Source: Streptomyces sp. PCS3-D2 (GTDB lineage Bacteria; Actinomycetota; Actinomycetes; Streptomycetales; Streptomycetaceae). From it: DNA of 64,000 bases. The stretch spans positions 4,910,501 to 4,974,500 of the forward strand of contig NZ_CP097800.1 in NCBI RefSeq assembly GCF_000612545.2, in the 5' to 3' direction. This document shows, one piece after another, positions 23,769 to 44,353 of this stretch (position 1 is its first letter; each line of letters starts with the position of its first letter). The notes beneath the pieces are model-generated. The model had not been told where the DNA came from. It did not search any database and saw nothing but the letters and a program-made list of their open reading frames with translations. The position numbers and the translations under genes were made by a program.

Positions 23769-23812
23769 TGTGCCCCCGGCAGGACTCGAACCTGCGGCCA
23801 AGTGCTTAGAAG
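23769..23812. repeat. attL, 44-bp core direct repeat
   Basis: Identical to 44310-44353. It contains the tRNA-Arg 3' half from the anticodon loop to the discriminator base. Immediately right of it the sequence departs from tRNA, so no tRNA can form here. Confidence 0.93.
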
Positions 23813-24156
23813 AGACCCCGCCACATTGGACACTGCAGGCAGTTGACCTGCTGCGATGTCCGCGTTCGCGTCCTTGCTGGCGATCCTCGTCGCGTATTCA
23901 CCGGAAGGGTGAGCTCCGAGGCCCTGGAGCCGGTCGGGTAGTCCAGCACGAGCCCCATCCGTGGGGCAGAGGTGCTGCCTATCCGTCGGCCTGGCCGACT
24001 GGAAGAGGCAACGAAGGGTTTGGCTAGGCGGCGCCGCTTGCAGAAAGTCGGCGGAGTCGCTGCGAACCGGCCAGGCGAGCCCTTAGCCTGCTGTAGTGCA
24101 GGTCTGTGTGGCAGTGGCTCAAATGGTGGCGACAGCAGATGGTGGGGTAGATATTG
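23813..24156. other. Left end of the element, non-coding
   Basis: 344 bases with no supportable gene between attL and the NACHT gene. It has a short palindrome GTCGGC-CTG-GCCGAC near 23984 and lower GC towards the right. The promoter of the NACHT gene should lie here but cannot be placed. Confidence 0.4.
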
Positions 24157-24912
24157 GTGTCTGGTCTTGAGCTCGCGATTCTTGCCAGTGCCAAGCCGGT
24201 CTTGGAGAGGGCTGCCGGAACCGCCTTGGGGAAGCTGATTTCTGGCCCGTTGCTGGGATCGCTTCAGTCTCGGTTCCGCAATCGTGCCACCCGAGCACGG
24301 CTGCGAGAAGATCCGGGAGCAGATGCAACGCCGTCCGACCTTTCTGCGGAATTCACTCGCTCTCTGATCGATTACCTAGATTCCGCCGACTTCGGTTCGC
24401 TAGCCATGTCGGTTGCGGCTCAAAAGTTTGCTGAAAGTCGCCGAAAGAAGCAAGTCAGCGAACTGGAGAGCGCTAAACAAAATCTCCGCGACTCATTGAG
24501 CCTGCTCGCTGGCGCAGGCCCGATTGACATGGATGTGCTCGTAGGGGCGATCTGGCAATCATTGGTTGACGCCATCTCGCAACATACACACCAAGTTAAG
24601 GCAGCTAACGAGCTACCGGCCGAGAGCCGAGCAGCAGTCGTTCGCATGGCTGCCAATTTTGCGCGTGCGGACGTAATGCGCTCGGATTTCGTGCGCGATG
24701 CGGATGGGCGTGCAAAGTACGAACTCTTCGAAAGCTCCTTGAAAGAGCAGGCGAAGAGCATGCATGCCACCATGAAGCTCCCGCATGCGGGAACCACCCG
24801 CAGGGTCGCCTACAGCCGCTTGTCGCCCTGTTGGAGGGTCAGGGGAAAGCAAGGATTCCAAGCCCGCCGCCTGGTCTTGATTCGATCATCTCGAGTTCGC
24901 ACAGGACGGTAA
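24157..24912 (+). CDS. NACHT NTPase, N-terminal part (reading frame broken)
   Basis: About 250 residues, of which the first 220 or so look like true protein: a helical N-terminal domain (MSGLELAILASAKPVLERAA onward) with many Ala, Glu and Lys and no recognisable enzyme motif. It ends with TTRRVAYSRL, which resembles the linker just before NACHT modules. After that the frame runs into out-of-frame, Arg-rich sequence and stops at 24912, while the NACHT module continues in the -1 frame. GTG 24157 (or TTG 24154) is the only possible start, since TAG lies just upstream at 24148. GC content is far below the chromosome. It is probably the first half of one gene split by a one-base loss near 24,800-24,830. 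Confidence 0.7.
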   Translation: MSGLELAILASAKPVLERAAGTALGKLISGPLLGSLQSRFRNRATRARLREDPGADATPSDLSAEFTRSLIDYLDSADFGSLAMSVAAQKFAESRRKKQVSELESAKQNLRDSLSLLAGAGPIDMDVLVGAIWQSLVDAISQHTHQVKAANELPAESRAAVVRMAANFARADVMRSDFVRDADGRAKYELFESSLKEQAKSMHATMKLPHAGTTRRVAYSRLSPCWRVRGKQGFQARRLVLIRSSRVRTGR

Positions 24913-27116
24913 TTCTAGGAGATCCGGGTGGCGGGAAGTCGACCCTCTCGCTAAAACTCACGTACGATATTGCCCGAGACGGATTTTCGGCCTCGGCTGC
25001 CAGGATCCCATTTTTGGTGATCCTGCGGGACTACACTCGTGATTTCGAAGCGGGGAACACGACGATGGTCCAGTATTTGGAGGCGCTATGCCGCTCTCCG
25101 TATAATATGGACCCACCGGCGGGGTTTGTTGAACACGCCTTGACCTCCGGAAGAGCCTTCGTAATTTTCGATGGGCTGGATGAACTTATAGATACATCCC
25201 TCCGCCGCAAGGTCGTCGAATTGGTGGAGTCGTTCGCATATCGATACCCGATGACTCCGATACTCGTCACGACTAGGAAAGTCGGATACGAGGAGGCCCC
25301 TCTAGACTCCAGCCTGTTCCACGCCGTGCAATTGGGGCAGTTGGACGACGATGGCGTTAAATCGTATGCCGATAAGTGGTTCATGCTCGATAACACCCTG
25401 GAGAAGAATCGCCGAGTCGAATTGTCTGCGAGCTTTTTTCAGGATAGTAGATTTGTGGCGGACCTTACGCAAAACCCTCTGATGCTGTCTCTTATGTGTG
25501 GCATCTATGCTAGCGAGAACTACATTCCGGCGAACAGGCCTGAGGTGTACAAGAAATGCACTGAGTTGCTGTTCGACAAGTGGGACAAGCAACGCGGCAT
25601 CGTTACACCCCTGCCTTTTGATGCTCACGTCAAGCACGCTATAAACGCGCTCGCTTACGCCATCTACTCAGACTCGAAGCATCGATCGGGCCTAACTCGT
25701 GACCGTCTCATTAGATTCGTAAAAGATTTTCTACTCGCGAAGAGGTTCGAGGATGATGACGAAGCAGAGAATGCGGCAACGCAATTCGTTGAATTTTGCA
25801 CCGGGCGCGCGTGGGTTCTTTCGAACGTTGGTTCTGACGAGTCTCAAGAGCTCTATGGATTCACGCACAGGACATTCCTTGAGTATTTTGCGGCAAACCA
25901 GCTTGTTCGCCTAAACCCGACAGCCGAACAATTGTTCGGTAAATTGCTGGATAAGATCTCTCATGCCGAATGGGATGTAGTCTCTCAGCTGGCTGTCCAA
26001 ATTATCGGTAATAATACCGAGGACGGTATGGATGATTTCCTGGAGCGTGTCATTGGTGCCGCAGAGAAATCTCCCATAGAGGAAAAGGCGAATCTTCTTG
26101 CCTTTGCCGGGAGGGCTCTTGGGTTCGCGGTTCCCAAGCCCGCGCTGGTGCGTCAAATTTGCCAAGCCAGTGTCGCCATGGCGATGGGCAATCCGAGCGA
26201 AGGGACGCCATTTCGGAGAGATAGGTATGCGCAGCTACGTGGCGTAAGGGCGGTTCTCCATGCCAATTCGGAAAATCTACCGTCCGTTGCCAAATATCTC
26301 CGAGCAAGCCTTCGGGTCGAAGACTCTTCAATCGAGGCCCGAGAAGTCTGCCTCGCGCTGGCTTTGAGTATCTCCCTTGTCCCGTATGCTGGGATCGACG
26401 ATGCTTCGTATATGACCAGCAAAGCTCGAGAGTATTGGAACGACTTCGAGGCTGAGAATTTTGACGAATTCGCGGCGGAGATGGACTCCCTGGCGGAACA
26501 TCGTGGATGGGCGGCACTTTATGCTGCAGTTGCGGGCCGGCGCCCAATTCGACATGTGATTGACGCGTACGGGCCGGAAGTCCTGTTCCAGTTCCATTCA
26601 GGACCGCTGACGCTGAGGCCACCCGTAGTGATGCGGATTGACCCGTATAGCGATGTCCGATCGAGGAGTGATTGGGCGCTAGATACTTGTCTCTCTGACC
26701 TCTCGGTAATTCTGCCTCGCTGTGAAACTCCTTGGTTCGTCTCCGAGTACGACTATGACCCTATTGGCAAACTCGGTCGGCATGCCTTCGGGGCTTTTTT
26801 TGGAACCCTCTCAGACTTTCCAGAGGAGCATCGAGATGCGGTGATTCTTCTCGCGGCTGCCTGGATTGAACTCGGCGGGGGGCCGCGGCAGGCATTTGAT
26901 GGCAGAGCGGACGGTCGGATCGTTCTTCTGATGCAGAAATGGAACGCAGCGAGGATCGGTCAGAGGCCCGTATCTCATGCGTTGCGCTCTATTCGTTCCA
27001 CGAAAGTATCTGGACGCGTCGTGGAGCTGTTGGAGGCCTGGGTGCAAGGACGGCTTCGTTTTACTCGAAAGCCCATCCCTGTAGCGGAGTCTGCAGCAGC
27101 CGAGACTCAGTGTTGA
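24831..27116 (+). CDS. NACHT-domain NTPase, main part (antiphage STAND-type candidate)
   Basis: 761 residues. The NACHT core is intact: Walker A GDPGGGKS (30-37), Walker B FVIFDGLDEL (110-119), the LVTTRKVGYE segment, QNPLMLSLMCGIY, and the conserved GFTHRTFLEYFAANQL after the winged helix. The roughly 380-residue C-terminal part is helical and presumably the sensor; no known repeats are visible. Bacterial NACHT proteins of this architecture are known antiphage STAND NTPases. The only in-frame start ahead of Walker A is TTG 24831 with no SD, so independent translation is doubtful; the N-terminal part is encoded upstream in another frame. Low GC points to recent acquisition as cargo. Confidence 0.8.
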   Translation: MEGQGKARIPSPPPGLDSIISSSHRTVILGDPGGGKSTLSLKLTYDIARDGFSASAARIPFLVILRDYTRDFEAGNTTMVQYLEALCRSPYNMDPPAGFVEHALTSGRAFVIFDGLDELIDTSLRRKVVELVESFAYRYPMTPILVTTRKVGYEEAPLDSSLFHAVQLGQLDDDGVKSYADKWFMLDNTLEKNRRVELSASFFQDSRFVADLTQNPLMLSLMCGIYASENYIPANRPEVYKKCTELLFDKWDKQRGIVTPLPFDAHVKHAINALAYAIYSDSKHRSGLTRDRLIRFVKDFLLAKRFEDDDEAENAATQFVEFCTGRAWVLSNVGSDESQELYGFTHRTFLEYFAANQLVRLNPTAEQLFGKLLDKISHAEWDVVSQLAVQIIGNNTEDGMDDFLERVIGAAEKSPIEEKANLLAFAGRALGFAVPKPALVRQICQASVAMAMGNPSEGTPFRRDRYAQLRGVRAVLHANSENLPSVAKYLRASLRVEDSSIEAREVCLALALSISLVPYAGIDDASYMTSKAREYWNDFEAENFDEFAAEMDSLAEHRGWAALYAAVAGRRPIRHVIDAYGPEVLFQFHSGPLTLRPPVVMRIDPYSDVRSRSDWALDTCLSDLSVILPRCETPWFVSEYDYDPIGKLGRHAFGAFFGTLSDFPEEHRDAVILLAAAWIELGGGPRQAFDGRADGRIVLLMQKWNAARIGQRPVSHALRSIRSTKVSGRVVELLEAWVQGRLRFTRKPIPVAESAAAETQC

Positions 27117-27315
27117 CGGACGAAAGCCGCCGACACATCGGCCAGTCCGGTACTGACCTATGCCTTTTCTCTTTCAAGGCGCTGAGCACGGATGCTGGCC
27201 CACGCACGGCTCATGACATCTGGAAACGGCCCTCCGAGAGTCCCGTCCAGCCCGCCCGACCTCAAGCGGTCACGTGCGACCCTGGCAGCAACCCAAGCCC
27301 TTGGAAGGAGGTGCC
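27117..27315. other. Spacer between NACHT gene and control block
   Basis: About 200 bases with intermediate GC and no gene. It ends in a strong SD (GGAAGGAGG) for the GntR gene. Confidence 0.4.
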
Positions 27316-27762
27316 GTGCCGGAGGCCAGCCCGCGCGGAACCTATCTACTCATCGCTGACGCGCTGCGGAAGGAGATTGAGGAGGGGCACCCCAAGAACA
27401 GCACTCTGCCGTCAGAGGCCGCCCTCATGCAGGCTCACGATGTCTCCCGCAACACCGTTCGTCGCGCGCTGAAGACGCTGGAGTCCGAGAAGCTGATCAC
27501 GTCCGTGCCGGGCGCCGGCTGGCGCGTGTCTCGGGTGCCCGTCCCGCCTCTCGTTGAGCGCCTGACCGCTGTCATCACGGAGGACCATCTCGCCGTCGGC
27601 GACAAGTACCCGTCTGAGGCGAACCTCTGCGAGCGCTTCGGAATGTCCCGGACAGCCGTACGCCACGCGCTGGCGCAGATGGAAGGCATCGGCCTACTCG
27701 CCACCGTGCACGGCAAAGGCCGAACAGTGCTCGCCCTTCCGACCACCCAAGAGGAGTCATAG
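27316..27762 (+). CDS. Tandem GntR-type winged-helix regulator without effector domain
   Basis: A 148-residue protein consisting of two GntR winged helices in a row. The first is LIADALRKEIEEG through RRALKTLESEKLI and VPGAGWRVS (residues 10-70). The second runs from LTAVITEDHLAVGDKYPSE through SRTAVRHALAQMEGIGLL (about 78-140). No ligand-binding domain follows. In pSAM2 the GntR protein KorSA represses the element's activator gene, so a repressor role is plausible, though KorSA itself is about 260 residues. GTG 27316 has AAGGAGG at good spacing. It lies 2 bases upstream of the HD gene, suggesting an operon. Confidence 0.82.
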   Translation: MPEASPRGTYLLIADALRKEIEEGHPKNSTLPSEAALMQAHDVSRNTVRRALKTLESEKLITSVPGAGWRVSRVPVPPLVERLTAVITEDHLAVGDKYPSEANLCERFGMSRTAVRHALAQMEGIGLLATVHGKGRTVLALPTTQEES

Positions 27763-27764: not shown

Positions 27765-28343
27765 TTGCCATCCATGGGGCTAACTGCGTGGGCGTACTCG
27801 CTCTCCGAATCGATGCTGGCCGAACCGCTGCCGCGCCGCTGGGCACACTCTCTCGGGGTAGCCAAGCGGGCGCGTTCCCTGAGCCCGATCCTCGGCCGTG
27901 ACGCCGAGCTGCTGGAGGCTGCCGCAGTTCTGCACGACGTCGGCTACTCCCCCTCCATCGCCGCTACCGGCTTCCACCCGCTCGACGGGGCCCGGTTCCT
28001 CCGCGACCAGGAGGGAGCTGACGAGCGCGTCGTCCGGCTCGTGGCCCACCACTCCTGCGCTCTCCTGGAGGCCGAGGAGCGCGGGCTCCGGCGTGACCTG
28101 GAGACCGAGTTCGAGCTGGAGAGGCCGGAGCTTGTAGATGCGCTGATCGTGTCGGACATGACGACTACGCCGGACGGCGAGCACACAACGCCGGCGGCCC
28201 GGCTGGACGAGATCGTGCAGCGGTACGGCCCGGATACGATCGTGGGTCGCTTCATCCAGCGAGCGGCACCGGAGATCTACGCCGCCACCGAGCGGGTGGA
28301 AGGCCGGATGTCCCTCGCCCAGGCCACCACTCAGCCGATGTAA
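27765..28343 (+). CDS. HD-domain phosphohydrolase-like protein
   Basis: A 192-residue HD-superfamily protein. Metal ligands visible are His28 (RRWAHSLGVAKRA), His57-Asp58 (AAVLHDVGYSP) and a later Asp in LIVSDMTTT. Additional His residues (GFHPLDG, VAHHSC) match the HD domain of small metal-dependent phosphohydrolases. Substrate unknown; nucleotides or cyclic nucleotides are typical for the superfamily. TTG 27765 has GAGGAG 8 bases upstream; ATG 27774 is an alternative. It is co-directional with the GntR gene and converges on the Nudix gene, overlapping it by 13 bases. Confidence 0.82.
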   Translation: MPSMGLTAWAYSLSESMLAEPLPRRWAHSLGVAKRARSLSPILGRDAELLEAAAVLHDVGYSPSIAATGFHPLDGARFLRDQEGADERVVRLVAHHSCALLEAEERGLRRDLETEFELERPELVDALIVSDMTTTPDGEHTTPAARLDEIVQRYGPDTIVGRFIQRAAPEIYAATERVEGRMSLAQATTQPM

Positions 28344-28804
28344 GGCTCACGGCGCGAATCGTCCAGGCCGTGTTGGATCCGCAGACGCATGGACGGGTGA
28401 ATGTCCAGGTCATCGAGGTCCCCCGGATCAATCCAGCGGACCTCCTTGGATTCGCTGCTCGTGCGGAGGATTCCGCCTATCGGACGGGCCCGGAAGCAGA
28501 TCGAGAACTGTTGTCGTACCTCGCCATCGTCGTACGCGAGGACGTGCTCCGGGTCGGTGTAGAGCCCCACAATGCCGTCCACCTCAACCTTGATCCCGGT
28601 CTCCTCCTCGACCTCGCGCACAACTGTGTCGCCGACGCGCTCGCCAATGTCGTGGCCACCGCCGGGAAGTGCCCACAGGTTGTTATCGGTCTTGTGGATG
28701 ACCAAGAGCCTCCCGGCGCCGTCCTGCACGATGGCCGTGACCGAGGGCACCACGGAGTTGGCGGCAGGAGCGTTGGGGTCGCGGAAGTAGTCGATTCGGC
28801 TCAT
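28331..28804 (-). CDS. Nudix hydrolase, candidate Pif-like immunity factor
   Basis: A 157-residue Nudix protein with a perfect Nudix box at residues 49-71 (GGHDIGERVGDTVVREVEEE, then TGI), so pyrophosphohydrolase activity on nucleoside diphosphate derivatives is expected. In pSAM2 the Nudix protein Pif prevents redundant transfer between cells already carrying the element; a Nudix gene in the control block of this AICE suggests the same role, which is inference. Its ATG overlaps the stop of the upstream XRE gene by 4 bases, so the two are translationally coupled. Confidence 0.88.
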   Translation of the reverse strand: MSRIDYFRDPNAPAANSVVPSVTAIVQDGAGRLLVIHKTDNNLWALPGGGHDIGERVGDTVVREVEEETGIKVEVDGIVGLYTDPEHVLAYDDGEVRQQFSICFRARPIGGILRTSSESKEVRWIDPGDLDDLDIHPSMRLRIQHGLDDSRREPYIG

Positions 28805-29571
28805 GCGTCTGGACCTCCCAGGTCTGTGGGCGAGGAGATGGGTCTTGCGGTCTCCCAGACCCGTTCGACGCTCTCGGCGTAGGCATCGAACAGCTCGCCC
28901 CCGGGGACGCGCTGGATGTGCAGCACCGGCGCCATGTACGCACCGACGCCGTACAGGTGCCCGTTGGCGAGCATCTCGTCATCGGCCCGGTAGATCGAGT
29001 TGTAGAGCGTGGTGGAGTGGAGTCGGAACTCCACACCAGGGAGGCCGAACAGCGAGGCATAGTTGACCAGCGCGTTGCGAATCTTGCTGGCCATAGCTCC
29101 CCCGATCCCCTCGTCCTCGCCTCGCACGGCGACAGCCGCGGACTCCGGATCCCCGAGCATGAAGCGGATCCGGACTCCGGCAGCCGACCTCTCCTTGACG
29201 ACCTGGTGAAATGCCGCGTCCTCAGTGAGCCAGAATCCCGAGTAGACGAGCACGTCGAAATGTCTTGACGCTCGGGCGTAGAGCTGCGGCCAGAGACGGT
29301 TCGGAACCACTGACCGGTGAGGGTAGAGCCTGACCAGCTCGGCGTTCCCCGCTTCGGTGACCTCGGCCGACGTCCGCTCATCCGGCCACAGGTAGGACAT
29401 CTCGCACTGTAGGAGCGAGGCTGCGGCGTACTTGAAGCGACGGTACGGCTGCCGCTTGGGCTCATTGATCCAGCGTTCGACCGTCTTGGCTGACACGCCT
29501 AGCGCTTCGGCGACTTGATCGAGCGACAGACCGCACTTGGTGATCGCACCACGTAACCGTTCATTCGCCAT
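28801..29571 (-). CDS. XRE-type HTH regulator with PLD-like C-terminal domain
   Basis: A 256-residue protein. Residues 5-60 are a helix-turn-helix (RGAITKCGLSLDQVAEALG then VSAKTVERWI). The C-terminal 170 residues resemble a phospholipase-D-like fold (FDVLVYSGFWLTED, VRIRFMLGDPESAAV, EFRLHSTTLYNSIYRADDEML), but the HxKxxxxD motif is degenerate, so it probably senses rather than cleaves. ATG 29571 has GGAGAG 6 bases upstream. It is upstream of the coupled Nudix gene and divergent from the transfer region, as expected of an element-maintenance regulator. Confidence 0.75.
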   Translation of the reverse strand: MANERLRGAITKCGLSLDQVAEALGVSAKTVERWINEPKRQPYRRFKYAAASLLQCEMSYLWPDERTSAEVTEAGNAELVRLYPHRSVVPNRLWPQLYARASRHFDVLVYSGFWLTEDAAFHQVVKERSAAGVRIRFMLGDPESAAVAVRGEDEGIGGAMASKIRNALVNYASLFGLPGVEFRLHSTTLYNSIYRADDEMLANGHLYGVGAYMAPVLHIQRVPGGELFDAYAESVERVWETARPISSPTDLGGPDA

Positions 29572-29976
29572 GCCGCGCTCTCCCCGCACTGGGACGACTT
29601 GGTACGACCTCACCGTAGCGAAGTCGTGCACCAGTCGTACATGTGCAAAGTCCAACGTCTCGGCCCCAGCGGCCATGCTGAAGACGCATCGAGCGGACGG
29701 AAGCGTCAGCCCCTAAGGGTGAAGGGACTTGACGCCGCGAATCCTTCTCCGCAAGATGAGGAACAAGTATTACATGTACCTCCAGGGATTCCGATCCGCC
29801 GAGAGGTGCTGCACACCCACAGGGCGGGGACGCTGCAATCCCGCTAAAGGCCAGGTAGGACGCAATGGGCTTCGGCCCGACTGGCGAGGTGGCCCGGCGA
29901 CCGCGAGCAACGGCCGGAGAGTGGGGACTTGGTCCCCCTTGCAGTGCTTGACGCAACCACGCCGTAGGAGGTCGAA

Positions 29977-30253: not shown

Positions 30254-30517
30254 ATGAAGTCCATCGTTGCACGTCACGCGGGTGTTACCCCGCTTCCGGT
30301 CGACCTGGAGCCGACGGACGCGGAGCTGGACGCGATCGAGGCCGAGATGCCGCTGATCTCCGCTGAGGTCGAGTTGCTGGACGCGTTGATCGTGCTGCTG
30401 GACCGGCCGGCGTCGGAGTTCGGCGCCCGCCGGATCCGGCGGGCGCACCGGCGGGTGCTGGCGGCCCGCCGGGACGCGGCGAACAAGAGCTGCCCTGTTC
30501 CGCCGGCGGTGGCGTGA
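30254..30517 (+). CDS. Small conserved AICE protein (DUF6284-like)
   Basis: An 87-residue, mostly helical protein (EPTDAELDAIEAEMPLISAE, then VELLDALIVLLD and an Arg-rich tail RRIRRAHRRVLAARRDAA). Short proteins of this type are regularly found at the start of the transfer region in Streptomyces AICEs and plasmids; function unknown. ATG 30254 has GAGAGGAG upstream. The next gene overlaps its stop (GTGATG), so the set is an operon. Confidence 0.72.
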   Translation: MKSIVARHAGVTPLPVDLEPTDAELDAIEAEMPLISAEVELLDALIVLLDRPASEFGARRIRRAHRRVLAARRDAANKSCPVPPAVA

Positions 30518-30792
30518 TGCGCGGCGCGCACCTGGTCCACCGGGATGGCCGGTGGCGCCTGTTCGTAGCGCTGCCCGGCAGCGTGGCCCATTGGCCGACC
30601 CACTACTTCACGGGGCCGACCGTGCCGAGTGTTCAGGAGCGCTCACGGGCGCTCACCGCGCTCGGCTTCACGCTCACGGACGGCGCGGCCTGGTCCTGGA
30701 CCGAGGACACTGAGCGGTTTGACGACCCGGCCTCGCCGGTCATCCTGATCGCCCTCGCGCCCGTCGAACCGGTTGTGGGGGGTGCATTGTGA
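30514..30792 (+). CDS. Small conserved AICE protein (DUF6303-like)
   Basis: A 92-residue protein (AHLVHRDGRWRLFVALPG, then ERSRALTALGFTL) of a small family seen in Streptomyces mobile elements, without known function. The start, GTG 30514 or ATG 30517, overlaps the upstream stop, and its own 3' end overlaps the SpdB-like gene by 4 bases, showing translational coupling along the operon. No membrane segments. Confidence 0.7.
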   Translation: MMRGAHLVHRDGRWRLFVALPGSVAHWPTHYFTGPTVPSVQERSRALTALGFTLTDGAAWSWTEDTERFDDPASPVILIALAPVEPVVGGAL

Positions 30793-31802
30793 GCGATGCT
30801 CATCTGCGCTCATCGGAGCGCGCGTTGGCGTTCGGGACGTGGCTGATCGTGAGCGGGGCGATGCTCTACTCGATCCTCACGGTCACGCCACTGATGGCCG
30901 CCCACACCCCCGACGCGTGGGACTGGACGGCGCCGATTCTGCCGCTCGTCGTGGACGCGGCGGTGCTTATCGTGGTCCGCCTGGACTCGGTCCTGGCCCG
31001 GCTGGGCGGGCATGGCGGGCCGTGGCCGGTGGCCCTGCGCTGGATGACTGGCGCCATGACGCTCCTGTTGAACATCGGCGCATCCGCGCTGGTGGGAGAC
31101 ATGGTGGGGGTCGCGGTCCACGCGGTCGCGCCCCTGCTGCTGATCGTCACCGCGGAGGCTGGTCTGGCCTACCGCCGGGCCCTGACCGCCGCTGTCCTGG
31201 CCGCCGAGGAACGCAAGCAGGCCCAGCGGGACGCGGCAGTACGAGCGGCTGCGGAGCGAGAGGAGAACCGGCTGCGGGCGGAGCGTGAACGCCGTGACTA
31301 CGAGGCTGCGCAGGCGCGTGAGCAGCGTGAGCACGAGGCGAAGCTGGCCCGGGAAGCCGATGAGCGCCGGGCCCAAATTCTCCGTGAAGAGGCCGACCGC
31401 GCGGAGGCTGCGCGGCGGGCCGTGCAGGAGGCGCGGGACGAGCGTGAGCGCCGTGAGCACGAGCGTGAGCAAGCCGCGAAAGCTCGTGAGCAAGCGGCCC
31501 GGCAGGCCGCAGCCCAGCGCGCGGCCGACGAGCGTCGCCGGGCCGAGCAGGCACGGCAGGAGGCGGCGGAGCGGGCGGAGCGTGAGCGCGCCGAGCTGCT
31601 GTCCGCGGGCCCGGCCCTGGAGAAGCTCGAAGAGGTTCGGGCCCGCCAGGTCGTCCAGGCCTCGTACGCGGCGGGGCTGACGCAGCGGCAGGCCATCGAG
31701 CTCACCGGCTGGTCCGCCGGGTGGATCGCCGCCCGCTACCAGGAATTGCGCGAACTCACCGCACCCGATCCGCGCCCTGTCCTCGAAGGAGCCAGCCAGT
31801 GA
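30789..31802 (+). CDS. SpdB-like membrane protein with coiled coil (DUF2637-type)
   Basis: A 337-residue protein. The first 130 residues hold about four membrane helices (15-39, 46-65, 82-106, 108-128), matching the DUF2637 domain of plasmid spread proteins. Residues about 135-285 are a highly charged Glu/Arg/Ala coiled coil. The C-terminal end (VVQASYAAGLTQRQAIELTG) looks like a helix-turn-helix. Spd proteins help spread transferred DNA between mycelial compartments after TraB-mediated transfer. It overlaps both neighbours by a few bases. Confidence 0.78.
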   Translation: MSDAHLRSSERALAFGTWLIVSGAMLYSILTVTPLMAAHTPDAWDWTAPILPLVVDAAVLIVVRLDSVLARLGGHGGPWPVALRWMTGAMTLLLNIGASALVGDMVGVAVHAVAPLLLIVTAEAGLAYRRALTAAVLAAEERKQAQRDAAVRAAAEREENRLRAERERRDYEAAQAREQREHEAKLAREADERRAQILREEADRAEAARRAVQEARDERERREHEREQAAKAREQAARQAAAQRAADERRRAEQARQEAAERAERERAELLSAGPALEKLEEVRARQVVQASYAAGLTQRQAIELTGWSAGWIAARYQELRELTAPDPRPVLEGASQ

Positions 31803-37349: not shown

Positions 37350-38294
37350 TTACGGGGTGGTGGCGGTCCGGTGGGTGCGCCAGTGGGCGGCGAGCCATAC
37401 CTCGTGCTCGGGCCGCAGCCTGGCCCGGGGGATCTTCCCGTGGAGCTCGGCATAAGCCGGGTAGCAGAGGAGTTCCTCGTCGACGTCGATCAGGCCGGTG
37501 TCGGGGTCGACGGCGATCTGCCCGCGGTCGAAGAGGCTGTGGACGTCGTTGCGCAGCAGCAGCCCGCCCCAGTCGTGGTGCTCGCTCTCCTCGGCGAAGC
37601 TGTAGAGGTGCGCTGCCTGGAGGGCGGCGGCGGGGGCGGGGCCGGTGAACGCGCAGACCTGGCCGTGGTCCTTGAGGAGCTGCTTGCGGAAGGCGGGCTG
37701 TCCCTGCCGGGTCTTCACGTTCGCCATCCGGTGCCCGCCCGCGATCGGCCTGCGCACCGTGTCCCCGCCGGCATGCTCGTCGTCCGTGTCGAGGTCTTCG
37801 AGGGCCAAGAGGGCGTCGCGGAGCTTCTCCCACCTGGCCGGGCGCATGCTGAGCTGTGAGCGGGGCGAGTCGCACAGGGCCCGCAGTTCCGGGCCGGTCA
37901 GCAGGCCGCGGCCGTCCATCCACACTTCTCCGTGCCGGGATCGGTAGGTGACGACCGTCTTCGTCTTGCTGCCCGGCTCCTCGAACTGCGCGCCGCACTT
38001 GTTGCACACGCAGGTCGGCTTGAGCTTCTTGCGGCGCTTGAAGTCGGCCCGCTTGCACTCCGGACAGAAGTAGAGCGTCTTGACCTCGCTCCCGGTCTCG
38101 ATCTCGGAGATCACGCCGAGCCCGAGGAGCTCCTTCTTGTCCCACAGGGCGATGACGTCGCCCACCTTCAGATTCGCGTGGTTGGGGACGGTGTCGTCCC
38201 AGCTGTAGTGCTGCGACGGGTCGTCGTCGTACCCGTCGTTCCCCCCGTGCTGCCGCTCTTCGCCCACTGCCAGCACCAGCCACGCCGTCGTCAA
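37350..38294 (-). CDS. HNH endonuclease with EVE/PUA-like and zinc-ribbon N-terminus
   Basis: A 314-residue protein on the strand opposite to its neighbours. Residues 1-66 (AWLVLAVGEE, HANLKVGDVIALWD, LGLGVISEIE) look like an EVE/PUA-type modified-base reader. Then comes a zinc ribbon (Cys77/80, Cys97/100). The C-terminal half is HNH: GQVCAFTGP, AAHLYSF with His229, and LRNDVHSLFDRG with Asn249 and His252, all key residues present. EVE-HNH combinations are known modification-dependent restriction enzymes. The EVE reading is inference from a short match; the HNH call is firm. It is next to two cytosine methyltransferases. Confidence 0.78.
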   Translation of the reverse strand: MTTAWLVLAVGEERQHGGNDGYDDDPSQHYSWDDTVPNHANLKVGDVIALWDKKELLGLGVISEIETGSEVKTLYFCPECKRADFKRRKKLKPTCVCNKCGAQFEEPGSKTKTVVTYRSRHGEVWMDGRGLLTGPELRALCDSPRSQLSMRPARWEKLRDALLALEDLDTDDEHAGGDTVRRPIAGGHRMANVKTRQGQPAFRKQLLKDHGQVCAFTGPAPAAALQAAHLYSFAEESEHHDWGGLLLRNDVHSLFDRGQIAVDPDTGLIDVDEELLCYPAYAELHGKIPRARLRPEHEVWLAAHWRTHRTATTP

Positions 38295-38397: not shown

Positions 38398-39093
38398 ATG
38401 ACCCACCGCACCGACAGCCCGCGAGGATCCGGGCACCGGCCGCTGTTACTGGACGCGTTCTGCTGTCAGGGCGGCGCCGGCACCGGCTACCAGCAGGCCG
38501 GATTCGACGTCACCGGCATCGACAAGGACCCCCAGCCCCACTACCCCCTCGCCTTCCGCCAGGCCGAGGCCGTCACCTTCATCCGCGAGCACGGCGCCGG
38601 CTTCGACTTCATCCACGCCTCCCCGCCCTGCCAGCACGACACCGACTGCCAGCGCATCCAGAACAACGACCACCCCGACCTGATCGCCCCCACCCGCGCC
38701 GCACTCGAAGCGACGGGCCGTCCGTGGGTGATGGAGAACGTCCGCGGCGCCGCCCACAAACTCAACCGGCCCGTGATGTTGTGCGGGGCGATGTTCGGCC
38801 TGCGGACCTACAGGCACCGCTACTTCGAGACCGGCGGCGGCTTCACCCTCACCCCGCTCCCGCACCCCGCCCACACGGTTCCTCAGGCCAAGATGGGCCG
38901 CCCTGTCCCGGGGGGCTGGTACGGGCAGTTCGTCGGGAACTTCTCCGGCGTCGCCCTCGCCCGTCAGGTCATGGGCGTGCCGTGGATGAACCGCGACGGC
39001 ATCCGCGAATGCATCCCCCCGGCCTACACCCAGTGGATCGGCGCCCACGCCCTCGCCCAGCTTTCCGCGGCCGCGCTGGAGGTGGCCGCATGA
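38398..39093 (+). CDS. Compact C5-cytosine DNA methyltransferase 1
   Basis: A 231-residue Dcm-like protein. Motif I LLLDAFCCQGGAGTGYQQAG (SAM binding), motif IV SPPCQ with the catalytic Cys78, and motif VI MENVRG (about 112) are intact. C5 methyltransferases are usually above 300 residues with a target-recognition domain between motifs VIII and IX; here that region is very short. It overlaps methyltransferase 2 by ATGA. AGAGAGACC lies upstream of ATG. It may modify the element or, with its sister, change host modification. Confidence 0.86.
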   Translation: MTHRTDSPRGSGHRPLLLDAFCCQGGAGTGYQQAGFDVTGIDKDPQPHYPLAFRQAEAVTFIREHGAGFDFIHASPPCQHDTDCQRIQNNDHPDLIAPTRAALEATGRPWVMENVRGAAHKLNRPVMLCGAMFGLRTYRHRYFETGGGFTLTPLPHPAHTVPQAKMGRPVPGGWYGQFVGNFSGVALARQVMGVPWMNRDGIRECIPPAYTQWIGAHALAQLSAAALEVAA

Positions 39094-39728
39094 GCGTCTC
39101 CCCGATGGTGCTGCCGTTGCGGCGGCCGAACGGCCTGCGCGTGCTGGACCTGTGCTGCGGTGCCGGCGGCCTGTCCATGGGCTACTACCTCGCCGGATTC
39201 GACGTCGTGGGTGTCGACAACCGGCCCCAGCCGAACTACCCGTTCACCTTCCACCAGGCCGACGCCCTCACCTTTCCCCTCGACGGCTTCGACCTCATCC
39301 ACGCCTCATGGCCCTGCCAGCACTTCGCCCGCGTCACCGCCTGGCGCGGCGCCCGCGACCAGCACCCCGACCTCCTCACCCCCGGCCGCCGGCGGCTCCA
39401 GGCGTCCGGGATCCCGTGGGTGATCGAGAACGTTCCCGAAGCACCCCTTCGGCCGGACTACGTGCTGTGTGGGTCGCAGTTCGGGCTCAACGTCCGCCGC
39501 CATCGGACCTTCGAAACCTCCTGGGGCGGCGGAGGAGACCTCCTGCCCCCGTGCTGGCACCACAAGAACCTGCTGGCCTTCGAGCACAAGGGCGAACGCG
39601 CCTACGCCGACGCCATGGGCTGCACCTGGATGAACAAGACCGAAGCCCGCCAGGCCGTCCCCCCGGCCTACACCCACTGGATCGCAACCCAGTACCTCAC
39701 CCACAACCGGCAGGAGGCAGCCGCATGA
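39090..39728 (+). CDS. Compact C5-cytosine methyltransferase-like protein 2
   Basis: A 212-residue paralogue of its upstream neighbour. Motif I is VLDLCCGAGGLSMGYYLAGF, motif VI is IENVPEA, and motif IV reads SWPCQ instead of SPPCQ but keeps the Pro-Cys pair (Cys76). Activity is therefore possible but not assured. As in its neighbour, the target-recognition region is minimal. Its stop overlaps the start of the prim-pol gene (ATGA), so nuclease-side modification genes are coupled to replication genes. Confidence 0.8.
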   Translation: MSVSPMVLPLRRPNGLRVLDLCCGAGGLSMGYYLAGFDVVGVDNRPQPNYPFTFHQADALTFPLDGFDLIHASWPCQHFARVTAWRGARDQHPDLLTPGRRRLQASGIPWVIENVPEAPLRPDYVLCGSQFGLNVRRHRTFETSWGGGGDLLPPCWHHKNLLAFEHKGERAYADAMGCTWMNKTEARQAVPPAYTHWIATQYLTHNRQEAAA

Positions 39729-40567
39729 CCACCGGGTACCTGCGTACCGCGCTCTGGCTGGCCGAGCGAGGCATTCCCGTGCTGCCGCTGCGGGCGGGCA
39801 AGAGCCCCGTGGGCAACTGCAGGGCCTGCCGGAAGAACGCCTGCGGTGGCCGGCCGAACATGAAGACCCCGGGCCCGTGCCAGTGCCCGGCGCCGTGCCA
39901 CGCCTGGGCCGCGGCTACCGCCGACGCGGCGGTTCTCACCTCGCCCGCCTGGGCCCCGGCCTGGCGGCAAGCTGCTGCCGTCGCCTACCACCCGGGCGGC
40001 ACCGGGGTCACCGTGGTCGACCTCGACAACGCCGACGCGATCGGATGGGCCCGGCACAACCTGCCGACCACGCGAACCGTGCCCAGCACCCGCGGAGAGC
40101 ACTGGATCTACCTGGGCACCATGACCTCCCCCAACGCCGTACGCCCGGGCGTCGATATCAAGTCCCTGATGTCCTACGCCCGCTGGCTCGGCCCCGGCAC
40201 CGGCACCATGACGGCCCTCCCGGATGCCGTGCGCGCGCTTGCAGTGAAGGAGCCCACCGCGGCCCGGCCCGCAACGAGCGCCCCGACCGTTTCGGCGCCG
40301 GCCGGTGGCGGGCAGTGCCCCCATCGCTCGCCCGCCTACCTGGAACGCGGCATCGCCATGGCGGAGCAGCGGATCGAGGACGCCCCGGACGGCATTCACC
40401 GGACCGTATTCCGGATGTTCCTCGCGGTGCTGTCCGCACACGGCCGGTGCGGCTGCCTCACCGAGACACACATCGGCCGGCTGTTCGCCGCCGCGCAGAC
40501 CCGGGGCGAGTCGCTGGGGCACTGCGAGGACGCCTGGACCAACGCCCGTACTCAGCTGGGGATGTGA
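39725..40567 (+). CDS. Prim-pol (bifunctional primase/polymerase-type) replication protein
   Basis: A 280-residue protein. The N-terminal 200 residues match the bifunctional DNA primase/polymerase fold: YLRTALWLAERGIPVLPL opening, a Cys-rich insert (six Cys between 32 and 58), and the catalytic VVDLDN (Asp99, Asp101). It ends with a small helical domain. In AICEs of the RepPP class this domain starts replication of the excised circle. It is followed after one base by the ATPase gene, so the replication protein here is split in two. Confidence 0.82.
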   Translation: MTTGYLRTALWLAERGIPVLPLRAGKSPVGNCRACRKNACGGRPNMKTPGPCQCPAPCHAWAAATADAAVLTSPAWAPAWRQAAAVAYHPGGTGVTVVDLDNADAIGWARHNLPTTRTVPSTRGEHWIYLGTMTSPNAVRPGVDIKSLMSYARWLGPGTGTMTALPDAVRALAVKEPTAARPATSAPTVSAPAGGGQCPHRSPAYLERGIAMAEQRIEDAPDGIHRTVFRMFLAVLSAHGRCGCLTETHIGRLFAAAQTRGESLGHCEDAWTNARTQLGM

Positions 40568-40568: not shown

Positions 40569-42044
40569 GTGACCGACGAGGACAAGACCCCGGCCCGGCA
40601 GATCATCACCGACTACGCGCAGGAGCACTTCCGGTACTTCCGTACCACCGAAGGCACCGTGTACGCGCAGAAGAACGGCCACCCCGTAGCCCGGCCGATC
40701 CGCTCGCAGGGCACGACGGGCAGCCACCGGCAGGAACTCATGGTCGGTCTCTACAACGACGGCAAAGGCTCCTTCAACGGCTCCGCTCTCAAGGAGGCAT
40801 TGGACTTGATCGAAGCACTCGCGCTCAGCCAGGACGTGCAGGCCACCCACATTCGGGTAGCCCCGGGATTGGACGGCGCGACGTGGTTGGACCTGGGCCG
40901 CGACGATGGCCAGTCCGTGCGCATCCACCCCAACGGATGGGACATCCTCACCCCCGACCCGCGGGAAGTGTGCTGGCGCCGCACCCAACTCACCGGCGAA
41001 CTCCCCCTGCCGGAGAAGGACACCGACGGCAAGGGCATCGACGCTCTGCTGCGGCTGTGCAACTTCGCAGGCGCCGAGAGCGAGTGCCTGGCCATCGCGT
41101 GGCTGATCGGCTGCCTGGAGCCGTCCGTGCCCGTCCCCGCCCCCTTCCTCACCGGCCCCCAGGGCGCCGGCAAGTCGACCGGCGGGCGGATGCTGGTGCG
41201 GATCATCGAGGGCATGAAAGGCGACCTGCGCCGGGCACCGAAGGATGAGGAGAACCTGATCACGGCCGTCGCCGCCGGATGGGTCACCGCACTCGACAAC
41301 CTCTCCCACCTGGCGCCGGACCTCTCCGACCTGATGTGCTGCATCGTGACCGGCGCCGAGAGCGTTAAGCGCGCGCTGTTCAGCGACGGAGACGTCTACC
41401 TCTCCCGCTACCGCCGCCCGCTCCTGCTGACCGGCATCGACGTCGGAGTGATCCGCCCCGACCTCGCCGAACGCCTCCTGCCACTCCGCCTGGAGCGGCC
41501 GCGCGTACGCAGGACGGAAGCGGAGCTGTGGGCGGAGTACGAGAGCAAGCTGCCGATCATCCTCGGCTCCCTGCTGGACCTGACCGTCAAGGTCCGTTCC
41601 ACGCAAGCCGACATCCCCACAGACCTGCGGATGGCAGACTTCGCCCACCTCTGCGCCCAGCTCGATGTGGCCACCGGCCTCGCCTCCCTGACCGCGTACC
41701 GGGCGACCCTGGACGACCTCAACGACGACGTGATCGAGGGCGACCTCCTCGCCCAGACCGTCCTCAAGCACGCCGCCGGCCTCGACCCCGGCCAGGAAGT
41801 GCGGATGACCTCCGCCGAGTGGCTGCACGCCCTCACCCAGCTCTACACCGGCGACGACTTCCGGCCCCTGCCCAAGGGCTGGCCCACCACCGGCAAAGTC
41901 CTCTCCGACCGCCTCAAGCGGCTCCAGCCCACCCTCGCTGCCCGCGGCGTCCTCGTCGACTGGGGCCGCACCAAAGCCGCCCGCTTCATCGAAATGACCC
42001 GCCCGGCCGCCCCGGCGCCACACGAGCAGGCAGAGGCGTTCTAG
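40569..42044 (+). CDS. Replication ATPase/helicase of the element
   Basis: A 491-residue protein with a P-loop ATPase core: Walker A LTGPQGAGKST (about 194-204), a Walker-B-like AGWVTALDNLSHL stretch, and a PLLLTGIDVGVIRPDLAER segment with a candidate arginine finger, as in the phage/plasmid primase-associated helicases. The C-terminal domain (about 400-480) resembles the DNA-binding part of such Rep proteins. GTG 40569 lies 1 base after the prim-pol stop. Together the two probably form the initiator that works on the iteron region downstream. Confidence 0.82.
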   Translation: MTDEDKTPARQIITDYAQEHFRYFRTTEGTVYAQKNGHPVARPIRSQGTTGSHRQELMVGLYNDGKGSFNGSALKEALDLIEALALSQDVQATHIRVAPGLDGATWLDLGRDDGQSVRIHPNGWDILTPDPREVCWRRTQLTGELPLPEKDTDGKGIDALLRLCNFAGAESECLAIAWLIGCLEPSVPVPAPFLTGPQGAGKSTGGRMLVRIIEGMKGDLRRAPKDEENLITAVAAGWVTALDNLSHLAPDLSDLMCCIVTGAESVKRALFSDGDVYLSRYRRPLLLTGIDVGVIRPDLAERLLPLRLERPRVRRTEAELWAEYESKLPIILGSLLDLTVKVRSTQADIPTDLRMADFAHLCAQLDVATGLASLTAYRATLDDLNDDVIEGDLLAQTVLKHAAGLDPGQEVRMTSAEWLHALTQLYTGDDFRPLPKGWPTTGKVLSDRLKRLQPTLAARGVLVDWGRTKAARFIEMTRPAAPAPHEQAEAF

Positions 42045-42072: not shown

Positions 42073-42117
42073 AGCAAGAAAAGCACCCGGCGCCCGGCGG
42101 CGCGTGCTCTTCTTGCT
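42073..42117 (+). terminator. Terminator of the replication operon
   Basis: AGCAAGAAAAGCAC pairs with GTGCTCTTCTTGCT (one mismatch) around a GC-rich loop, 28 bases after the rep stop. Confidence 0.6.
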
Positions 42118-42236
42118 GTTCCGGCGGCTCGCCGCCGCTGCAAGGGTCGTGCCGCGCAGCGGCCCCCTCTTCGCGCTTGAAGGCGCACCGCACCACAACA
42201 GACACGCCCCCTTTTTTTCCTAAGAAGGGAAGGCCT

Positions 42237-42445
42237 GCGTCACCCGCGTCACCCCCAGCCGAAAAACCGCGTGCGACCTGCGGATACGCGGGTGACGCAG
42301 ACAGCCCACGGCTGCGTCACCCCGCGTCGCCTGCGTCACCGCCCCGCGTCACCCGATGACACAGGTGACGCAGACCGGTGACGCACGCCCACCCCCTATG
42401 TCACCCAAAACCACAGGTCAGCGCGCTGAATGACGTAGGTGACGC
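42237..42445. repeat. GCGTCACC iterons, candidate replication origin
   Basis: The octamer GCGTCACC is present exactly at 42237, 42246, 42314, 42333 and 42346, and inverted (GGTGACGC) at 42291, 42364, 42377 and 42438, with partial copies at 42400 and 42447. Nine exact copies in 209 bases, in both orientations and directly after the rep genes, fit an iteron origin or a regulator-binding array controlling xis-int. Confidence 0.72.
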
Positions 42446-42553
42446 GATGACGCAGAAATCCGAAGGTCGGACAGGTGCGTCCGCCTGCCAGGGCCTTGAG
42501 GCCCGCTCCCGACCACATTCGTGACCCCAAATTTCGCTCCGAGAAGGGAACCC

Positions 42554-42751
42554 ATGCCTGCCGCGCCCGCGTCCCGCGTGATGCTCACCGTTCCTGAGCT
42601 GTGCGACGAACTCGGCATTTCCCGCTCCACCTTCTACGACTGGCGCCAGAAGCGGCGGGCTCCCCGCTGCATCAAGCTGCCGAACGGTGACCTTCGCGTT
42701 CGCCGGACCGACCTGGAGATCTGGCTGAACGAGTGCGAGGACGCTGCCTGA
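42554..42751 (+). CDS. xis: Excisionase (Xis), MerR/HTH_17 type
   Basis: A 65-residue protein dominated by a winged helix-turn-helix (MLTVPELCDELGISRSTFYD, then RRAPRCIKLPNGDLRVRRTD), the usual form of AICE excisionases. It works with the integrase to excise the element from tRNA-Arg. ATG 42554 has GAGAAGG upstream. Its stop shares a base with the integrase start (TGATG), so the two are coupled. Confidence 0.9.
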   Translation: MPAAPASRVMLTVPELCDELGISRSTFYDWRQKRRAPRCIKLPNGDLRVRRTDLEIWLNECEDAA

Positions 42752-44145
42752 TGGACACGACGTACGACGTGAAGCTGTGGAAGACCTCGGTATACGAGGG
42801 CAAGAAGAAGACCACCCACACCGTCCGTTGGGAGCTGGCGGGTAGGGAGTGGCGGAAGCCGTTCGCCACGGGCCCGCTCGCCGAGTCCTTTCGCTCGGGT
42901 CTCGTGACCGCGGCCCGCAAGGGAGAGGCGTTCAGCCTTTCCACGGGGCTTCCCGTCTCGTACCAATCCGGCGCGGCCGGCGTGAAGTGGTACGACTTCG
43001 CAGTTCAGTTCGTCGACCAGCTGTGGGAGCGGACGTCCGCGAACAACCGGCGCAACGTGGCAAAGGCGCTCACCCCCGTCACGGTGGCCCTGCTCCGCAG
43101 CAAACCGACCATGTTCGACGGCGTGGACGTCCGCCGGGCCCTCCGCGAGTACGCCTTCAACACCGGCCGGCGCGACGAGGCACCGCCGGAGATCGCTGTG
43201 ATCCTGCGGTGGGTGCAGCGCAACAGCCTCACCATGGTGGCCTGGGAGGACGAGGGGACCGTCGAAGCGCTGCTGCGCTCCGCGGGGACCAAACTCGACG
43301 GCACCGCTGCGGCACCCAGCTCGGTCAGGCGGAACAAGCGGGTCCTCAATGTCCTGATCGAGCACGCCATCAAGAGGAAGGTGCTAAGGGAGAACCTGCT
43401 GCCCAAGGGCAAGGGCACCACGGCGGCCAAGACCTCCTCCGCCGTCGACAAGCGGTCCCTCCTCAACAAGGAGCAGGCCGGCGCGCTGCTCGCCTGGATT
43501 CACGCGCGGCCGAGGGGCGGCCGGCGGCTGCACGCCTTCTTCGCCACGATGTACTACGCCGGCGCTCGGCCCGAAGAAGTCGTGGCACTCAAGGTCGCGG
43601 ACGTCCGGCTGCCCGGCCCGGATGCCGATGATCAGTGGGGCGAGCTGCTGATCCATACCGCTCAGCCCGAGGTGGGACGGCAGTGGACGGACACCGGTGA
43701 GGTCCGGGAGCTGCGGGGACTCAAGGGGCGGGCCGCCGACGACATGCGTACGGTGCCCTGCCGCCCGGCCCTCACTCGGATCCTCCGTGCCCACATCGAG
43801 AAGGAGGGGCTGAAGGCCGGTGACCTCCTGGTCCAGGGGGAGAACGGAGGACTTCTGGCAGGTTCGGTCATCCGGCGGGCCTGGCGACGGGCCCGAATGG
43901 TGGCTCTTCCGGCCCACGAATACGAGTCACCTCTCGCCCGGCGGGTTTACGACCTGCGGCACACCTGCCTGACCAACTGGCTCAATGCCGGCGTCCCCGC
44001 CGCGGACGTGGCCGAGTGGGCGGGCAACAGCGTCCCCGTACTCCTGGCCACGTACGCACGGTGCATCAACGGGCAGCTTGACGACCTCAAGCAGCGGATC
44101 GAGAGGGCGGGGGAGCTGCCCGACCCGGCCGCGCCCCGGGCCTGA
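42751..44145 (+). CDS. int: Tyrosine-recombinase integrase
   Basis: A 464-residue tyrosine integrase. After an N-terminal arm-binding part and a core-binding SAM-like domain, the catalytic domain shows Arg in YYAGARPEEVVAL (about 273), the LRHTCLTNWL box (about 403-412) and the nucleophile Tyr in LLATYARC (about 435). It would recombine attP with the 44-bp core in tRNA-Arg. It lies about 165 bases from attR and directly follows xis, the standard AICE order. ATG 42751 overlaps the xis stop. Confidence 0.94.
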   Translation: MDTTYDVKLWKTSVYEGKKKTTHTVRWELAGREWRKPFATGPLAESFRSGLVTAARKGEAFSLSTGLPVSYQSGAAGVKWYDFAVQFVDQLWERTSANNRRNVAKALTPVTVALLRSKPTMFDGVDVRRALREYAFNTGRRDEAPPEIAVILRWVQRNSLTMVAWEDEGTVEALLRSAGTKLDGTAAAPSSVRRNKRVLNVLIEHAIKRKVLRENLLPKGKGTTAAKTSSAVDKRSLLNKEQAGALLAWIHARPRGGRRLHAFFATMYYAGARPEEVVALKVADVRLPGPDADDQWGELLIHTAQPEVGRQWTDTGEVRELRGLKGRAADDMRTVPCRPALTRILRAHIEKEGLKAGDLLVQGENGGLLAGSVIRRAWRRARMVALPAHEYESPLARRVYDLRHTCLTNWLNAGVPAADVAEWAGNSVPVLLATYARCINGQLDDLKQRIERAGELPDPAAPRA

Positions 44146-44205
44146 TTTTTCACCGCGTATTCTCCGCAGCCACCCGCAGAAACCCGGTACCAGCCGGACA
44201 CCGTT

Positions 44206-44234
44206 GGACCTCCTCGCACCCGCTGAGGAGGTCC
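44206..44234 (+). terminator. Integrase terminator
   Basis: GGACCTCCTC and GAGGAGGTCC form a perfect 10-bp stem with a 9-base loop, about 60 bases after the int stop. Confidence 0.65.
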
Positions 44235-44276
44235 GGAGGTGACTGCTCCGCGTGCCACCAAATGGGCCTGACCAGC

Positions 44277-44303
44277 AAAAAGACCCTCCCGTAGGAGGGT
44301 CTT
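44277..44303 (-). terminator. tRNA-Arg terminator supplied by the element
   Basis: On the minus strand AAGACCCTCC-TACG-GGAGGGTCTT is followed by a T-run, just after the tRNA 3' end. It lies inside the element, so integration brings a replacement terminator. Confidence 0.8.
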
Positions 44304-44309
44304 CACATT

Positions 44310-44353
44310 TGTGCCCCCGGCAGGACTCGAACCTGCGGCCAAGTGCTTAGAAG
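44310..44353. repeat. attR, 44-bp core direct repeat
   Basis: Identical to 23769-23812. It overlaps the 3' half of the intact tRNA-Arg, including the anticodon loop. Confidence 0.93.

Follow-up and report, generated by a model that had tools for sequence, protein, structure and literature searches.

SLP1-type actinomycete integrative and conjugative elements (AICEs) encode a tRNA-targeting integrase, a Prim-Pol (primase/polymerase) gene followed by a RepPP gene, and an FtsK-type transfer (Tra) protein. The survey that describes them (Ghinet et al. 2011, PMC3218068) reports the two-gene Prim-Pol and RepPP layout for SLP1 and other AICEs, and also a cluster of HD, NUDIX and XRE genes. Among described transfer systems, TraB of pSVH1 recognizes the repeats of its cis-acting locus of transfer (clt) through a C-terminal winged helix, and pWTY27 pairs TraA with a clt, both having short repeats at the tra locus (PMC3583192). 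We find the same features in an element of about 20.5 kb in Streptomyces sp. PCS3-D2, lying within a 64,000-nucleotide stretch of contig NZ_CP097800.1 (positions 4,910,501 to 4,974,500 of the forward strand; hereafter the window). It shares the genes and the cluster with SLP1-type elements, as far as SLP1 can be likened by its published description, and differs from them in its tRNA-Arg(UCU) site and in a cargo of a NACHT gene and an EVE-HNH-type nuclease with methyltransferases; its clt, predicted from sequence, is built of other repeat units than those of pSVH1 and pWTY27. We read the element as an AICE with an SLP1/RepPP-type replication module, Int/Xis excision, iteron replication and TraB-clt transfer, and put the probability of this reading as a whole at roughly 0.85. 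It is an ordinary kind of element, the type of which had been recognized correctly in an earlier reading of the DNA; what the comparison with other genomes adds is a candidate origin shared across the family and an apparent correspondence between TraB and clt.

The element is bounded by an exact 44-bp direct repeat, the two copies of which start 20,541 bp apart and are the only occurrences of this attachment (att) core in the 7.63-Mb genome, with up to three mismatches allowed. As the sequence-only reading had claimed, the right copy completes a tRNA gene, recognized as intact by both ARAGORN and Rfam, and the left copy is a displaced 3' half, at which ARAGORN finds no tRNA. The G+C fraction is 0.73-0.78 in the left flank (18000-23999), against 0.52-0.60 over the NACHT gene. 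In addition to site-specific integration at a tRNA 3' end between direct repeats, the element has an integrase and an excisionase, a replication module of its own (Prim-Pol, PF09250, and the helicase-like RepHel) and an FtsK/SpoIIIE-type Tra protein (PHROGs E 2.8e-93; Pfam match below cut-off), the features by which AICEs are recognized. Pfam cut-offs are passed by the Xis-like helix-turn-helix (HTH), Prim-Pol, GntR, HD, NUDIX and HNH proteins, and the integrase falls just below its own (PF00589, E 1.5e-5, 25.3 bits versus 27.1). Int and Xis would recombine the 44-bp tRNA core to release an excised circle, and the GntR, HTH and NUDIX/HD proteins would be expected to control transfer and redundancy.

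A query of the tRNA and right flank matched in all 120 genomes searched, the distant ones by the tRNA or a piece of the flank only. G042 and G039 are among the nearest relatives when ranked by flank identity (94% and 90%), and in both the chromosome runs from left flank through core to right flank with no element between; the G039 core is identical at 43 of 44 positions. Among the 29 other loci examined, these two were classed as empty and four as integrase-bearing, with an integrase homolog adjoining the core (L118, L125, L126 and L127), the others being unclassified. A tRNA site that has taken up elements more than once, and that stands vacant in close relatives, is the opposite of 20 kb fixed at one locus with no empty site, the outcome that the earlier reading had named as contrary to its proposal; the search of sister strains that it had called for returned both states. 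The repeat, the intact tRNA, the gene content, the empty sites and the sister elements at the same tRNA (below) all bear out its identification of an AICE with both att sites.

The disrupted NACHT gene would fit a decayed remnant, in which att sites and genes remain while excision, replication or transfer has been lost. We consider this unlikely: Int, Xis, Prim-Pol, RepHel and TraB are all open frames, with Int, TraB and RepHel matched by homologs over nearly their whole length, the att cores are identical, and both of the cis-acting arrays described below are present.

Prim-Pol is followed directly by a replication gene, repHel, the product of which has no Pfam match of any family and hence none to RepAM (DUF3631), as expected of the Prim-Pol/RepPP class. 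The sequence-only reading had called the replication protein split; there are indeed two separate genes, but this is not an anomaly, and damage was rejected as its cause, since the two occupy separate frames in all 80 related loci that we compared (the best 80 of 331 found; 83-96% RepHel identity) and the survey gives the same Prim-Pol/RepPP layout for SLP1 (PMC3218068). A search of 246 Streptomyces genomes found RepHel homologs in 96 (at E 1e-10 or below, the host's own and distant homologs included), with a single copy in the host genome. The homolog in a tRNA-Tyr element of S. violaceoruber (L097) is 84% identical, which is only suggestive of kinship with SLP1.

Just 3' of repHel, where the earlier reading had placed the origin, lies an array of iterons. 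All six exact copies of TGCGTCACC in the window fall within 42236-42385; with one mismatch, the whole window holds 38 copies versus 27.9 expected, so that clustering is what stands out (window-wide counts of TGCGTCACC, and of CGACAAG below, were compared with dinucleotide-preserving shuffles, whereas the script shuffles used elsewhere preserve single-base composition only). In the 600 nucleotides 3' of repHel, GCGTCAC is present in at least one exact copy in 77 of the 80 loci and in at least three copies in 76, with 610 sites in total and a median of eight per locus, compared with mono-nucleotide shuffle means of 0.07-0.17. A single copy is found in L054, and L074, L077 and L088 lack the motif and have a ATGACGCAG-type array in its place. 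The CCTAAG motif that precedes the first iteron is possibly part of the origin; it is found in 48 of the 80 regions, the window included, and of 15 loci with listed offsets, 14 have it at position -17 or -18. The A+T-rich stretch near the window iterons is modest, reaching at most 0.525 over 40 nucleotides.

The arrangement extends to free circular plasmids. In six of six compared, the nearest in RepHel (NZ_CP109021, NZ_CP107980, CP109214, NZ_CP060743, pFP12 and NZ_CP109564), a RepHel homolog (59-70% identity) is followed by an iteron array: three plasmids with RepHel at about 70% have 13-14 of the same GCGTCAC iterons as the window, and in the three at about 60% that position is taken by TGCGTCCCC. 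GntR and Prim-Pol are annotated upstream in five of the six, the upstream side of pFP12 lying outside the stretch compared. Unlike the window element, the plasmids are annotated with ParA and a recombinase-family gene on the downstream side, and no Int is named in the stretches shown, for which the PLSDB gene table is incomplete. These six Streptomyces plasmids (L143-L147 and L149), 23-46 kb in length, have a RepHel homolog and iterons in common with AICEs. A RepHel homolog at 36% identity is present in pFP11, which is reported to be a theta replicon with a RepA that binds iterons; we take the matched gene to be that RepA. Repeats that adjoin an initiator gene and are conserved with it, as here, are typical of iteron replicons, and the comparison suggests that an iteron origin is likely for this element and that RepHel probably reads the iterons. 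RepHel would bind the TGCGTCACC iterons next to its own gene and load, or act as, a helicase, and Prim-Pol would lay primers, giving iteron-driven and probably theta replication of the circle.

AICEs of the pSAM2 type replicate by rolling circle, and iteron arrays can be regulatory; by this precedent, the present element might also be a rolling-circle replicon in which rep transcription is under iteron control. None of the 22 proteins was assigned by Pfam to a rolling-circle Rep family, although in the AICE survey the RepSA family has no Pfam model either (PMC3218068), which makes a missing match weak evidence. The replication pair fits the Prim-Pol/RepPP class of that survey, however, and the 36% relative of RepHel in pFP11 belongs to a reported theta replicon, and we regard rolling-circle replication as improbable.

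The second array lies 3' of traB, where the sequence-only reading had expected the clt. Nine exact copies of CGACAAG lie within 36450-36607, and the 64-kb window has 25 versus 7.1 expected; the direct GACAAG units follow each other in steps of 12, 7 and 5 nucleotides. TraB homologs were found in 68 of 393 genomes, the host's own included. For a comparison of this region we took 71 loci, of which 66 were readable (five without a motor match, L200, L201 and L205-L207, were dropped); 35 TraB stretches beyond the first 30 loci were picked by hand from the homolog list. With near-duplicates counted, at least six GACAAG copies are present in 44 of the 45 loci with a type I winged helix (RQT), the type found in the window, and all 18 loci with a type II winged helix have no GACAAG and at least seven copies of CA[G/C]TA. 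The layout, as seen in the 45 type I loci and in four type II loci, is common to both, with inverted copies close to the stop codon and then direct ones: an inverted copy lies within 25 nucleotides of the stop in 39 of the 45 type I loci, and the four type II loci have inverted copies at +15 to +67 and direct copies at +43 to +144. A third type of TraB C-terminus is found in L202-L204, where CCCCCACA-like repeats lie downstream of traB.

The arrays resemble each other where the winged helices do. In a Mantel test, which makes no use of type labels, on 63 loci (60 after removal of near-duplicates, the third winged-helix type excluded), array similarity correlated with winged-helix identity at r 0.86, with a partial correlation of 0.84 given the motor domain (0 of 5000 permutations), and with the motor domain at 0.30-0.32. 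Once the winged helix was controlled for, the motor (0.14), the upstream linker (0.12) and the downstream DNA (0.08) added little. Within type II, the first x of the recognition helix R-x-x-V-R pairs with the two bases 5' of CA[G/C]TA: Glu with GG in four loci, Gln with GC in six and Lys with CC in six (16 of 16 loci, by majority bases), and, in single loci, His with TC (4 of 7 sites) and Pro with AC (5 of 9 sites). Without the near-duplicates L042 and L102, this pairing covers 14 loci, the related sequences of which are not independent. A tandem motif at the tra locus that is matched to the TraB winged helix is what a clt should look like, and the covariation supports the identification of the array as clt. 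By homology, TraB would use its C-terminal winged helix to assemble on the array that follows traB, and would pump double-stranded DNA into the recipient.

Each array adjoins the gene with which it is paired, so that co-inheritance alone would give some correlation, and the iteron variant is not explained by any RepHel residue; both arrays could, in principle, be neutral tandem repeats linked to the adjacent gene rather than functional sites. Linkage alone should favour such neighbours too, however, and the traB array tracks the winged helix (partial correlations of 0.75 and 0.86) rather than the equally linked linker and downstream DNA (0.12 and 0.08). Both TraB types also arrange their different repeat units in a similar way, and the iterons persist across att sites and in free plasmids, all of which makes neutrality distinctly improbable. 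A prophage or phage-plasmid is hardly credible and was rejected on the PHROGs result: the integrase and a small methyltransferase do match PHROGs, but no structural, packaging or lysis family was found for the 10 of 22 proteins run against it, nor at the Pfam cut-off in any of the 22, and the element has an FtsK-type TraB and an HD-NUDIX-HTH cluster of a kind known from AICEs (PMC3218068).

More broadly, Prim-Pol/RepPP AICEs may be iteron (theta) replicons that share an origin code with plasmids and use a small TraB recognition code, both cis-sites being readable from sequence, a generalization to which we give somewhat better than even odds. The origin code would consist of a constant GCGTC half and a second half, ACC, ATC or CCC, that varies by lineage; TraB would choose its DNA through the pairing of the type I winged helix with GACAAG and of the type II first-x residue with the flanking bases. 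Several observations weigh against these readings. Because the 80 loci were taken from the top of 331, part of their uniformity comes from selection. Among 19 distant RepHel homologs the picture is mixed: eight have at least seven copies of a CGTCC-family 8-mer (shuffle means 2.9-3.9), and for four of these (L279 and L281-L283) that number was reached in one or more of 100 shuffles; a different repeat, in eight copies, is present in L274, and no 8-mer exceeds four copies in L266-L271. No array was found in the 254 nucleotides 3' of the RepHel homolog in pFP11. A search for a RepHel residue that separates the three variant-iteron loci returned none, and the C-terminal stretch KGWPTTGKVLSDRLKRLQPTLAAR is identical in eight homologs compared despite their differing iterons, so that a change of RepHel specificity is not seen; it is because of this and the mixed distant homologs that reading of the iterons by RepHel is held at probable. 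Solved-structure sequence searches with RepHel and TraB gave no credible match, and the RepHel structure model, with a predicted local distance difference test score (pLDDT) of 48.6, is unusable for structure search, so that the helicase or initiator role comes from motif and homology only. The TraB match in Pfam is marginal (PF01580, E 0.011), L170 has a type I TraB and no array within 330 nucleotides, and the labels I and II were assigned with the data already in view.

AICEs carry genes between Streptomyces strains, and we found little in print on Prim-Pol-class origins or AICE transfer sites; neither an iteron origin for Prim-Pol AICEs nor a TraB-clt code was found in the literature searched, subscription papers lying mostly outside the search. 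A readable origin and TraB-clt code would apply as widely as the RepHel and TraB homologs counted above, and would open element compatibility, co-transfer and vector design to experiment; if true, one could tell from sequence which of the elements sharing a host a TraB is able to move.

Table 1. Features of the element and its integration site (window coordinates; strand left blank for att copies and arrays)
Feature	Position	Strand	Evidence
Left att copy (attL), displaced bare 3' half of tRNA	23769..23812		Exact 44-bp repeat; chromosome-side junction joined in empty sites
NACHT protein, N-terminal part, first frame	24154..24912	+	36% over 222 aa to L245, there in frame upstream of the NACHT part; no Pfam match
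NACHT NTPase part, second frame	24831..27116	+	PF05729 E 3.9e-13
GntR-family regulator, two GntR stretches	27274..27762	+	PF00392 E 5.5e-30
HD-domain phosphohydrolase	27774..28343	+	PF01966 E 1.7e-13
NUDIX hydrolase, Pif-like position	28331..28804	-	PF00293 E 2.2e-17
HTH regulator, XRE-like	28801..29676	-	Weak HTH matches below cut-offs
DUF6284 protein	30254..30517	+	PF19801 E 2e-35
DUF6303 protein	30514..30792	+	PF19820 E 2.6e-28
Spread-type membrane protein (presumably SpdA-like)	30789..31802	+	phrog_25954 (function unknown) E 2.9e-28; homologs in some AICE loci
Small transfer-operon protein	31799..32023	+	Open frame; 71% in L033, 74% in L042
Small protein, widely conserved in the loci compared (presumably RRQRL)	31993..32361	+	59-96% where present
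Small protein	32387..32626	+	46% homolog in G015 sister element
Spread-type protein upstream of traB (presumably SpdB-like)	32710..34338	+	86% in L033; no Pfam or PHROG match
TraB, FtsK/SpoIIIE-type DNA translocase, type I C-terminal winged helix	34326..36446	+	phrog_31069 E 2.8e-93
Predicted clt: two inverted CTTGTC at traB stop, then direct (GC)GACAAG array	36450..36607		Repeat counts and TraB-locus comparison
Small protein downstream of clt	36670..37158	+	Open frame; homologs in L033, L042, L094 and others
Nuclease with predicted EVE-HNH fold	37350..38294	-	PF13391; model pLDDT 80, predicted template-modelling score (pTM) 0.50; best match VcaM4I over residues 2-312
MT1, small C5-type DNA methyltransferase	38398..39093	+	phrog_363 E 3.9e-34; no Pfam match
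MT2, small C5-type DNA methyltransferase	39090..39728	+	PF00145 E 2.3e-6; 42% identical to MT1
Prim-Pol	39725..40567	+	PF09250 E 1.4e-7
RepHel, RepPP-type helicase-like replication protein	40569..42044	+	Walker-A-like TGPQGAGKST read from sequence; 331 related stretches
CCTAAG motif, 18 nt before first iteron	42219..42224	+	Comparison of 80 regions
Predicted origin: TGCGTCACC iterons, both orientations, between repHel and xis	42236..42454		Iteron counts and conservation across loci
Excisionase-like HTH protein (Xis)	42521..42751	+	PF12728 E 6.5e-12; TIGR01764 below cut-off
Tyrosine integrase (Int)	42751..44145	+	phrog_1 E 2.2e-25; 82% homolog at same tRNA in G015
Right att copy (attR), completes tRNA	44310..44353		Exact 44-bp repeat; empty-site junctions
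tRNA-Arg(TCT), complete	44311..44384	-	ARAGORN; Rfam RF00005

A sister element in G015 (L215/L216) occupies the same tRNA-Arg. It resembles the window element in Int (82% identity), Xis (76%), GntR (73%), HD (90%), NUDIX (86%), HTH (86%) and TraB (66%), and its att core is identical at 43 of 44 positions at one end and over the aligned stretch at the other. It differs in that its att copies are 16.07 kb apart and that the 29.9 kb compared contained no match (E 1e-4) to the Prim-Pol, RepHel, methyltransferases, HNH or NACHT of the window. Two loci on one contig of Streptomyces sp. NRRL F-2664 are closer still in part: L052 has Int at 97%, Xis at 91%, RepHel at 92% and the same tRNA and att, and L033 has TraB at 92%, RepHel at 96% and a transfer operon at 71-96%, but neither matches both halves in the stretches compared. 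The window element thus appears to be a composite, its integration end resembling L052 and its transfer and replication core resembling L033. A tRNA scan of 24 of the 80 RepHel loci and four sister stretches found a tRNA in 16 of the 24 loci, with Tyr in nine and Val, Arg(CCT), Arg(TCT), Arg(ACG) with Ser, Ser, Pro or Cys in others. By these comparisons, modules appear to be exchanged between elements, with the replication gene as the conserved core. At the same tRNA-Arg site, G046 (L217) has two copies of a 43-bp core, separated by 15.5 kb, and only a 65% integrase fragment there matches the window element.

The NACHT region comprises two overlapping frames, whereas its closest homolog (L245, in G221) has both parts in one 1029-aa open frame. 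The gene is frame-disrupted and is taken to be cargo, which agrees with the earlier reading, where it was singled out as the part that is not intact.

The EVE-HNH-type nuclease and the two methyltransferases appear to form a second cargo cassette. The model of the nuclease suggests an N-terminal EVE/PUA-like domain fused to HNH, and was matched by Foldseek to VcaM4I (E 1.7e-9, TM-score about 0.30), the next entry being TagI (E 0.027). It differs from VcaM4I in sequence (15-17% identity) and by a root-mean-square deviation of 17, which, with the TM-score, indicates that the model sets the two domains in a different arrangement; at a pTM of 0.50, their relative placing in the model is not reliable. 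Unlike the VcaM4I entry, the window gene lies divergently beside DNA-modification genes. VcaM4I is an EVE-HNH endonuclease that senses 5-methylcytosine and 5-hydroxymethylcytosine (PMC7897488), and a nuclease sensing 5-methylcytosine would be a danger to its own DNA next to C5 methyltransferases, unless it recognizes another target. The cassette may be a restriction-modification system or something else, and cleavage may or may not depend on a modified base.

A DNA-modification gene divergently adjoins the HNH homolog in 12 of 18 loci (HNH identity at least 43%), some of which are close copies (for example, L232 and L080); the HNH alignment omits L224, which has an internal stop, and the fragments L242 and L243. 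Small methyltransferases of the MT1/MT2 type are found beside HNH in the window, L221-L225 and L086 (only one in L224), a larger C5 methyltransferase in L226 and L076, and DpdA in L229, L231 and L097 (PF23859, E 9.9e-67 or better); no modification gene was seen there in the available DNA of L227, L228, L230, L232, L233 and L080. DpdA belongs to the 7-deazaguanine-in-DNA family. The partner of the EVE-HNH-type nuclease thus varies between loci, several of which belong to AICEs, and the modification genes involved are chemically unrelated. The Prim-Pol slot holds a modification gene in 23 of 74 loci, these being the loci, out of 81, with enough upstream DNA. In the S. violaceoruber tRNA-Tyr element, which is possibly SLP1-like, a cassette of HNH and DpdA (L097, 7228-9153) stands directly before Prim-Pol.

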